Below, one piece after another: positions 4,062-6,576 of a DNA stretch of 38,538 bases. Source of the stretch: Rhodovibrio sp. (lineage in GTDB: Bacteria > Pseudomonadota > Alphaproteobacteria > Kiloniellales > Rhodovibrionaceae); contig SKZV01000228.1 in NCBI GenBank assembly GCA_007127165.1, positions 1 through 38,538 of the forward strand, read 5' to 3'. Every line of letters starts with the position of its first letter. Position 1 is the stretch's first letter. Below the pieces are notes generated by a model. That model worked only from the letters and a program-made list of their open reading frames with translations. It was not told where the DNA came from and made no database searches. Position numbers and translations under genes: made by a program.

Positions 4062-4394
4062 TCACGCCTGACCGTTCGCGTCCATCTGGCCCCCCGTGCT
4101 CAGGCTCGAGATCAGTTCCGCGAGGCTCATGTCCGGCGGCCCGGCGTCGGTCCCGTCGAGACCGCCGCTTTGCCGCTGCGTCTCGCCGCTCTCGCCGCCA
4201 AGCTGCGGTTCCTCGGTCGAGGCACCGCCATCACGCGCCGCGAGAAGGTGATCTGGCGGAGGTCCGGCGTCGCTGGCCGCGGACAGATCCGAGGCCGCCC
4301 CGGCGACCCCGGCGCTCCGGGTCACCTCCACTCCAGGCTGGTCGCCCGCAGGCTGGCCGGTGTCTTCGATGATAATGCGCATTGCCATCGTCAT
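4062..4394 (-). CDS. Small acidic protein coupled to S8 protease (unknown function)
   Basis: No family is recognised. The 110-residue product begins with a short beta-strand-like stretch (MRIIIEDTG, residues 5-13), then a Gly/Ala/Ser/Asp/Glu-rich, probably disordered middle, and ends with a more ordered LAELISSL segment before a Gly-containing tail. There is no signal peptide or cysteine. The start is only 7 nt after the protease stop codon, and AAGGGGGG lies between the two; that ribosome site fits the third codon ATG (4388) better than the first. Such tight coupling argues for a real gene working with the protease, as its substrate, inhibitor or adaptor. It is the last gene of a three-gene unit. 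Its existence is fairly likely; its role is unknown. Confidence 0.6.
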   Translation of the reverse strand: MTMAMRIIIEDTGQPAGDQPGVEVTRSAGVAGAASDLSAASDAGPPPDHLLAARDGGASTEEPQLGGESGETQRQSGGLDGTDAGPPDMSLAELISSLSTGGQMDANGQA

Positions 4395-4401
4395 GCCCCC
4401 C

Positions 4402-6204
4402 TTACCAGCCGTGGACCGCGTAGCGGCCCTCGATGTTGACCACCTCGTTCGTCAAGTTGCGCACCGTCAGCCAGTAGGTGATGCGCGAATCGCTCGCCCG
4501 TTCGATCTGCACCTCGCTGGCGATCTGCGGTCCGCCCGGCCTCGGCGAGGTCGGCACGATCTGCCAGGTTACGTGCCAGTGCGCCGGCCAGGAGTGCGTG
4601 AACCAGCGGCGTGTGGCGTTGGCCGGGACCTGTCCGGTGAACTGGACGCCGACCCAGTCGCGGGTCTGCAACGCCATCGGGATCAGTTGACGCAAGTTCG
4701 GCCGGTTGCCGATACGCTGGCTGCGCGGGCGTCCCGGAGCGTCCGTCTGCGGCGAGCCTGACCTCCGGAGCAGTTCACGCGCCCGCGCCGGAGACAAGGG
4801 GATGCGCCCATGCGCTCGCAGTACGCCCTGTACGCAGCCGATAGCCCCGACGACGATGGGTGCGGACGAAGAGGTTCCCGAGAACTGCCGGGTATAGTGC
4901 AGGTCGCGATTGCTGCCGCCCTGAAGATCGCCGTAACCGGTCGTGACCACTTCGCGGCCCCAACCCTGCGCATCCAAAACCGCGCCGTAGTTGGAGAAGC
5001 CGAGACGCGAGCGGTCCGGCCCGTGATTCTGGTTGTTGGTTCCGGGAGGTGGCGCGCCTGCACCGACCAGCACCGAGCCGGAATCCCGCTGTGCGCGGTT
5101 GAAGGGGTTCAACCAGTCGTTCGGGAAGCCGTTGGGCTTGTTGTTGTAAATCGCCGCGTCAAGATTTTCGCCACCGTTGCCTGCCGCCGAAATGACCACG
5201 ACACCACGATTAACGGCATAACGGATCGCGGCGTAGTCGTCGGGCCACCATTCGATGGGGATGAAGCCCACTTGTCCGACACCGGTGCTGTTCGGCCCCG
5301 GACGATGCAGTTCGATCAGGATGATATCGGCCGGACGCAGCAGGTCCGCCGCTTGCCGCAGCGCCCCCGCCGTGCCGAGCCCGCCGAAGATCGACACGCC
5401 GCGCACATGGGCGTCAGGGCAAATGCCGGTGACGCCGAAGGCGTTGACGTCCCCGCCGATCTCGCCCACCACGGCGGTCCCGTGGTTGTTCCAGCCGGGA
5501 TCCTGGGAGTTCGTGCCGATGACTCCGCCCTGATTCTGCCGCAGGTCCTCATGCGCGAAGTTCCAGCCGCCCTCGATGTCGATGATGCGGACGTTGAAGC
5601 CGCGTCCGCCCCTTTGGGTCCAGGCATAGCGCGCGTCGATGCCGACCGGCGCGGCATCGAGGTAGAGCTGAAGCGCCGTGAAATCCGGGGTTTGCGAGGG
5701 CGCTTCCACCGTATCCGGCATCATTGCGTTGATCGCTTCGTCCTCTTCGAGCACCTGCTCCGCCAGGAGACCTTCCGGCGCGCCGCCGGCGCTTCCCCGC
5801 TCGATCACCTCGGCGGAGGGGTAAGCCGGGGGTTTCACATAAGCGGCTTCGACGCTGGCGCAGGCGGCGAGCTTCTGGCACAGCCCCTCAAGCGCGCTTT
5901 CCGGGGCTTCGACGCGGTAGAAGAGCGACATATCGGGAAGCTGCTCGCGGGATTCGCCACTTTGCGGCATGGCGGCCTGGGCGGCCATGATTCGCTCCTC
6001 GCTGTCGCCGAAGAGGAGTCTTGCCGTTGCCCCGGCTTCCTGCAATGCGGCTTGCAGGTCGCCGAGATCCGCGCCGGAGGCGGAGGCAACGCCGGTTGCC
6101 TGAGCGCGCAGTCCCGCTCCGGCCTTTGCGACCATGATGAGTTCCGGCTCGGAAAGTGGGTTTTGGTTGAGTGATTGGGACGTATTCTTGCCTTTTTGGG
6201 CCAT
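4402..6204 (-). CDS. S8 family (subtilisin-like) serine protease with N-terminal prodomain-like region
   Basis: The 600-residue protein has the full subtilase set: Asp209 in IIDIEGGWNFAHEDL, His241 in NHGTAVVGE, oxyanion Asn343 in SAAGNGG, and Ser445 in FSGTSSSAP. The Asp motif is unusual (D-I-E-G-G rather than D-T/S-G). Residues 20-128 look like an I9-type prodomain ending in VEAAYVKPPAYP, and the last 90 or so residues look like a beta-sandwich ending NIEGRYAVHGW. No signal peptide is visible, so cytoplasmic action or non-Sec export is possible. The start chosen is the ATG at 6204, preceded by GAAAGGT at good spacing; the frame is open upstream to 6294. It lies between a second prodomain-like gene and a coupled acidic protein gene. 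Confidence 0.92.
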   Translation of the reverse strand: MAQKGKNTSQSLNQNPLSEPELIMVAKAGAGLRAQATGVASASGADLGDLQAALQEAGATARLLFGDSEERIMAAQAAMPQSGESREQLPDMSLFYRVEAPESALEGLCQKLAACASVEAAYVKPPAYPSAEVIERGSAGGAPEGLLAEQVLEEDEAINAMMPDTVEAPSQTPDFTALQLYLDAAPVGIDARYAWTQRGGRGFNVRIIDIEGGWNFAHEDLRQNQGGVIGTNSQDPGWNNHGTAVVGEIGGDVNAFGVTGICPDAHVRGVSIFGGLGTAGALRQAADLLRPADIILIELHRPGPNSTGVGQVGFIPIEWWPDDYAAIRYAVNRGVVVISAAGNGGENLDAAIYNNKPNGFPNDWLNPFNRAQRDSGSVLVGAGAPPPGTNNQNHGPDRSRLGFSNYGAVLDAQGWGREVVTTGYGDLQGGSNRDLHYTRQFSGTSSSAPIVVGAIGCVQGVLRAHGRIPLSPARARELLRRSGSPQTDAPGRPRSQRIGNRPNLRQLIPMALQTRDWVGVQFTGQVPANATRRWFTHSWPAHWHVTWQIVPTSPRPGGPQIASEVQIERASDSRITYWLTVRNLTNEVVNIEGRYAVHGW

Positions 6205-6294
6205 GACGGTAAGACCTTTCACACTGCGGTCGCCGGAAGGGCCGAAGCGCTGGCGGCGGCCAGTTGACGCGCAGAGTCTATGAAGAGAGGTCAA

Positions 6295-6576
6295 TCAGGG
6301 GAGGCTGGCGGCGGGCTTGGCGTAAGCGCCCTCGACGCCACTACAATCCAGAAGCCTTTGCGCGGCGGTTTCCGCCTCGGCTGTACTGGGAAGTTCGGCG
6401 GTGAATATTCGCCGCAACTCCGGGTCTTGCACGCCTGGGTTTTGAGCGCGGATCTCAAGTCCGAGGGACGTCAGAACATCTTCCAGTTCGCGAACTTCCG
6501 CCGGCTTGGAGAGGCTTGGCGCGGGATCGAGCATCCAATCCGCCACGCTGGCGTCGAGATAAACGACAAGCTCCAT
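6295..6576 (-). CDS. Stand-alone protease prodomain-like protein (I9-like), paralog of the S8 N-terminus
   Basis: The 93-residue product resembles residues 20-128 of the adjacent protease. Both begin with a hydrophobic strand after Glu-Leu (MELVVYL here, ELIMVAK there), both have an LR..F..E.P-like strand in the middle, and both end in C..VE.AY.KP (CSGVEGAYAKPAA here, CASVEAAYVKPPA there). I9-type domains fold against subtilases as intramolecular chaperones and inhibitors, so a free copy could act in trans. The ATG at 6576 follows GGAGG with five intervening bases; an ATG at 6588 is an in-frame alternative. It precedes the protease by 90 nt in the same direction and is probably co-transcribed. 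The similarity was found by eye. Confidence 0.68.
   Translation of the reverse strand: MELVVYLDASVADWMLDPAPSLSKPAEVRELEDVLTSLGLEIRAQNPGVQDPELRRIFTAELPSTAEAETAAQRLLDCSGVEGAYAKPAASLP

Follow-up and report, generated by a model that had tools for sequence, protein, structure and literature searches.

A subtilase locus of Rhodovibrio with a free copy of the protease's N-terminal domain and a motif-repeat protein: a possible protease-control cassette

On the minus strand of a contig of Rhodovibrio sp. the gene of a subtilase stands between two small genes, and the locus raises the question of what these three adjacent genes do together. The window, i.e. the whole stretch of DNA that was analysed, comprises 38,538 nucleotides. 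P0002 (93 aa, 6295-6576) is followed after 90 nt by the S8 protease P0001 (4402-6204, 600 aa from the ATG of MAQKGK), and the first ATG of P0003 (110 aa, 4062-4394) lies 7 nt behind the protease stop. A sequence-only reading of this DNA had described a three-gene cassette, and its positions and 7 nt gap were correct. Judged from its relatives, P0003 may start at the M of MRIIIED at residue 5. By reading of the protein sequences we take the flanking genes to be of MutS and PAS/GGDEF type on one side and of ArgB type on the other side. As these look by eye like housekeeping genes, the cassette seems to sit as a small island among ordinary genes. We also compared the neighbourhoods of related loci in which the protease carries the same C-terminal domain (CTD) as P0001. 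Generic ABC ATPases, at four loci, were the only recurrent neighbours besides the cassette genes; the cassette is therefore self-contained, as the sequence-only reading had supposed. The layout is not described in the open-access literature that we searched, which does not prove that no description exists.

P0001 consists of an N-terminal domain, a catalytic domain and the CTD. PF00082 was the sole Pfam domain on the protein (E 2.3e-14), and the Pfam and PDB matches place the catalytic domain at approximately residues 169-512 (4669-5700). The residues D209, H241, N343 and S445 were invariant in all 84 aligned sequences, i.e. P0001 and its relatives. P0001 is a peptidase of family S8, with the subtilase fold, the Asp/His/Ser triad and the oxyanion Asn. 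The active site is intact and, in line with what had been noted from the sequence, a simple hydropathy check detected no signal-peptide-type hydrophobic N-terminal stretch in any of the three window proteins. Within its own genome P0001 matched only itself. Its relatives are found in Proteobacteria, Streptomyces and other Actinobacteria, Cyanobacteria, Chloroflexota, Acidobacteriota, Armatimonadota, Bacteroidota and Haloferax.

Several observations concern relatives that do not carry the CTD. In L043 (2677-9633), L038, L039 and L033 two adjacent genes lie downstream of the protease, one of them for a RimK-like ATP-grasp protein; the hosts are Roseovarius/Sulfitobacter, Psychrobacter, Pacificimonas and Nitrospira, and in the Roseovarius group a GDSL-lipase/trypsin/EEP fusion is encoded upstream on the opposite strand. 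Histidine-phosphatase-like genes were encountered 3' of the protease in L036, L048 and L089, which come from different phyla (two of the three were recognised by eye). L089 (2638-6104) lies on a Paenibacillus megaplasmid and holds two S8 peptidases, one of which is the P0001 relative, and a trypsin-like protease in a single run. The proteases of L030, L032, L034 and L087 have other C-terminal parts such as BTRD1 repeats (Pfam), and by eye we noticed FG-GAP-like and beta/gamma-crystallin-like ends among them. It appears as if the C-terminal end of the protease were freely exchanged.

We then compared P0002 with the N-terminus of the protease, which it had been said to echo. Both window proteins contain the closing motif C..VE.AY.KP (CSGVEGAYAKP and CASVEAAYVKP), of which the Cys is not kept in relatives. 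BLASTP of the window pair alone returned an E-value of 4e-5 with 39% identity over 41 residues, and hhalign of the free N family against the family of protease N-domains gave a probability of 98.5 and an E-value of 2.5e-15 over 94 columns, which is far above chance. Furthermore, an HMM built from the free N proteins matched nearly all protease N-domains tested. The match is secure at the family level: P0002 is a free-standing paralogue of the N-terminal domain that the protease itself carries (residues 19-128, 5821-6150). P0002 terminates in ..VEGAYAKPAASLP, and the free N proteins in general end just past the AY.KP segment.

The free N copy was found directly upstream of the protease in ∼45 of 85 loci from many phyla. 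It is also specific to the locus: in 21 whole genomes the matches of the free N profile were confined to the cassette, where they corresponded to the free gene (15 clear cases and one weak) and to the protease's own N-domain. The free N gene is not obligatory, since it is absent from some CTD-bearing loci (Haloferax, Actinomycetospora and Catellatospora). In three loci of Chloroflexota (L013, L015 and L154) the free N proteins open with a lipoprotein-like leader, MRRALAIFVWLLLASMLVACA, and the adjoining proteases have no obvious signal peptide.

The AlphaFold2 model of P0002 (pLDDT 94.4) shows a ferredoxin-like plait with the order E-H-H-E-H-E, and according to this model P0002 is a plait of the propeptide type. 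The top structural matches in the PDB were ACT, PII, FtsX and other plait domains, with no subtilase propeptide among the matches listed. Pfam Inhibitor_I9 was matched neither by P0002 (E ≤ 5) nor by 18 relatives (E ≤ 1), and the I9 test gave one weak match to a fervidolysin prodomain model (E 0.032). The earlier assignment as an I9-type prodomain is hence borne out by fold and position, and the Inhibitor_I9 profile search, with no match in the small family, speaks against it. We call P0002 prodomain-like, not I9, because it is homologous to a domain in the prodomain position and has no Inhibitor_I9 sequence match. Pfam, NCBIfam, PADLOC and PHROGs gave no informative label for the small proteins, and a PDB sequence search with the profiles of both small domains returned no convincing match.

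Two features had been overlooked in the sequence-only reading, namely the CTD of the protease and the repeated DAGPP motifs of P0003. The CTD comprises ∼84 residues (516-600 of P0001, 4405-4659) and was modelled by AlphaFold2 as a six-stranded jelly roll (pLDDT 88.9). It matches no Pfam or NCBIfam family, is characterised by conserved Trp/Phe/Tyr-rich residues and has GOLD domains, the Tk-SP jelly roll and the PPC domain as weak structural neighbours. Most CTD-bearing relatives have a free copy of 84 residues 3' of the protease gene; the window's genome has the fused copy only. Across 20 genomes the CTD occurred at the cassette locus only, either once (fused) or twice (fused and free). The CTD tree separates free and fused copies into two old groups; L031, the haloarchaeal pair and the copy in the window are exceptions to this split or of uncertain placement. 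Few genomes have the domain: apart from those that we started from, we detected it in ∼8 of ∼1,850 sampled genomes, where the samples may overlap. The viral contigs that we searched contained no CTD, and the phage matches were only distant phage subtilases; a phage origin was rejected on these grounds.

P0003 belongs to a family, here called D, whose hallmarks are an MRI.IE-like start and repeats of [D/N/S][A/G]G..P, after which there is usually a short segment, LL..I or WL..I, that looks helical. In P0003 alignment with the relatives identifies motif 1 as DAGPPPDHLL (4242-4271) and motif 2 as DAGPPDMSLAELI (4110-4148), and across the family a D chain holds one to five motifs. We counted 38 strict motifs, compared to a mean of 0.2 and a maximum of 3 in shuffled sequences. 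Among ∼2,204 non-D open reading frames of similar length from the same loci none had two of the stricter motifs; the only two further frames that did were themselves D proteins, from duplicate loci. The third gene had been read as dedicated to the cassette, and indeed a D gene is present in all 28 S8 loci with the CTD, which cover several bacterial phyla and haloarchaea, and in none of the 56 CTD-less relatives. In 24 of the 28 it was recognised by the strict motif pattern, and in L010, L015, L017 and L029 by variant motifs read from the downstream DNA. The D gene lies 3' of either the protease gene or the free CTD gene. In a tree of the protease family built on the catalytic domain the CTD and D were gained or lost together in ∼5 changes, at least three of them on well-supported branches.

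The number of motifs also varies with the number of CTD copies. An extra motif at the C-terminal end of D was observed in 16 of 18 loci with a free CTD and in only one of 10 without. The two free-CTD loci lacking this terminal motif are those of haloarchaeal D proteins with an added tail, and the single locus with the motif and no free CTD is L031, where the fused CTD clusters with the free copies. The association recurs over several separate losses, and a sign test that allowed for kinship, asking whether the free CTD and the terminal motif disappear together, was consistent in direction but, with 3-5 events, not significant. The Haloferax D proteins of L023 (8020-8619) and L086 (7017-7658) are twice as long as the others, hold up to five motifs and carry the added C-terminal segment DYE..VSGTVEEVKDRV....

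The CTD is not restricted to subtilases. Genome searches recovered it as the C-terminal part of an astacin metalloprotease (L136), of NAL1_N-like uncharacterised proteins (L137, L138 and L152) and of a Vps10/BNR propeller (L151), which has no protease domain according to Pfam. Behind the astacin gene come first a D-like gene and then a free CTD, and the propeller gene of L151 has a free CTD and a D-like gene downstream. L153 has a divergent CTD on a larger propeller and no D gene. The position of the CTD is C-terminal in all carrier proteins. The excess of D motifs was significant in three of the six non-S8 loci (L136, L138 and L152), and the D-like genes of L137 and L151 are backed mainly by start and position; the gene of L137 appears to contain a frame shift, and in L152 it is uncertain where the D gene starts. 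The CTD and D may form a portable two-part module of a kind not described before, in which a C-terminal receptor domain and a multivalent ligand with repeated motifs would serve to collect, store or address proteins that are unrelated to each other (subtilases, astacins and propellers) in bacteria and haloarchaea. We put this generalisation forward tentatively and consider it rather less than an even bet. Where the carrier is the subtilase, many relatives have its N-terminal and C-terminal domains as free genes next to it as well, so that the enzyme would be encoded along with loose copies of its regulatory parts.

For the window we propose that the locus is a self-contained protease-control cassette, an explanation to which we would give an even chance. 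It draws on the gene set, the homologies, the predicted folds, the intact active site and the co-occurrence, and it has three steps. The free N-domain would act in trans on the subtilase, most simply as a chaperone that helps folding and/or as a product-like inhibitor. Homology, fold and position suggest this role, together with the analogy to stand-alone propeptide-like proteins that act on other subtilases, and the free N protein stops shortly past AY.KP, at the place where the tail of a propeptide would reach into the cleft of the active site. The D protein would be the dedicated partner of the jelly-roll CTD, as their strict co-occurrence suggests. Its [D/N][A/G]GxxP motifs would be the docking sites for the CTD, and a single D chain could gather or position several CTD-bearing molecules, one of which would be the free CTD copy in many relatives. 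The proline-containing motif and the Trp/Phe/Tyr-rich CTD are compatible with a putative aromatic docking site. Finally, the complex would be cytoplasmic, because signal peptides are absent, and the small partners would hold a latent protease until a trigger arrives. A purely cytoplasmic complex fits poorly with the lipoprotein-like leaders on the free N proteins of L013, L015 and L154.

The role of D can be read in other ways. If D were a dedicated substrate, the CTD would recruit it and the protease would cut at or between the [D/N][A/G]GxxP motifs and release short peptides. The repeated short motifs with variable spacers do resemble repeated cores or cut sites and the D gene lies directly behind the protease gene, but D-like genes also accompany the CTDs of the astacin, the NAL1-like proteins and the propeller without a protease domain, and the motifs track the CTD copies and not the type of protease. 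We consider this unlikely. Because D follows the CTD and not proteolysis, we favour the view that P0003 serves the CTD as a multivalent ligand or adaptor and is not simply a substrate; of the two roles that the sequence-only reading had offered for the third gene, the adaptor is the likelier one. The same motifs and the conserved N-terminal strand of D, together with the ATP-grasp genes next to CTD-less cousins of the protease, could point to a RiPP-like cluster in which D would be the precursor, with MRI.IE as its leader and the repeats as its cores, and the subtilase would be the leader peptidase. This appears very improbable to us and was rejected, as no modifying enzyme recurs within ∼6 kb of the CTD-bearing loci and the CTD/D pair also exists without a subtilase.

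It is also doubtful, though conceivable, that the CTD works as a tag for localisation or export, with D and the free CTD as its dedicated chaperone or carrier. Jelly-roll and PPC-like domains are frequent at the C-termini of secreted proteases. The CTD has a weak fold match of this kind, is always C-terminal and is common to several extracellular-type proteins without obvious signal peptides, and the lipoprotein-like leaders in Chloroflexota fit as well. On the other hand, the neighbourhoods of the CTD loci have no dedicated transport gene in common, and generic ABC ATPases are all that recurred there. Given the taxonomic spread and the extracellular-type carriers of the CTD we considered eCIS cargo in particular. 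A search of the genome that contains the window (92% complete) gave no match to the eCIS marker Pvc16_N, and Pvc16 was not enriched overall, with 13 of 31 CTD-bearing genomes compared to 10 of 33 control genomes; eCIS cargo was therefore dropped. The stress or conflict role suggested earlier found no evidence: none of the three window proteins matched a PADLOC-DB protein model, so that a known anti-phage defence system is unsupported, and neither viral CTDs nor other recurrent neighbours were detected. A defence role of some other kind is conceivable.

Our preferred explanation, a protease controlled by its small partners, resembles known systems in part. Stand-alone propeptide-like inhibitors of subtilases exist in fungi, plants and protists (PMC6993865). 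Like P0002, POIA1, the yeast peptidase B inhibitor, Arabidopsis SPI-1, TgMIC5 and Plasmodium SUB1-ProM are small separate products with a propeptide plait, and SUB1-ProM adjoins subtilase genes as P0002 does (PMC6993865). These inhibitors come from eukaryotes, and no CTD/D partner is known for them, whereas P0002 is bacterial, lies directly upstream of its protease and is recognisably homologous to the N-domain of that protease; inhibition by P0002 is putative. Bacillus Isp1 with its inhibitor IPI/BsuPI likewise combines an intracellular S8 protease and a small all-beta partner (PMC3901451), but the CTD has no match to Pfam PF12690 (BsuPI), is fused to the protease and has a second copy, as a gene of its own, in many relatives. 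In structure the CTD has weak matches to the C-terminal beta-jelly-roll of Tk-SP subtilisin (PDB 3afg, Z 7.2 over 76 residues) and the collagenase PPC domain (PDB 5sv5, Z 5.9). There is no detectable sequence relationship to either of them, and Z values of 5.9-7.2 may reflect only a common arrangement. Tk-SP and PPC-domain proteins are secreted, and we know of no D partner for them.

Trans-acting propeptides are an already known kind; new are a putative one beside a bacterial subtilase and, together with it, a CTD/D pair without a family entry. If our explanation is right, the locus would provide an instance from bacteria and archaea in which trans-acting propeptides are encoded beside their protease. 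More important, the CTD and D are two protein families without a Pfam or NCBIfam entry and an apparent interaction pair that is reused on unrelated proteins. The pair would go beyond a new variation on trans-acting propeptides if it proved to be a docking module that can be reused. A pair of short motif and jelly roll with countable copies would lend itself to testing and may be of use as a docking tool. The locus also makes testable the question of what keeps a subtilase without a signal peptide harmless to its cell.
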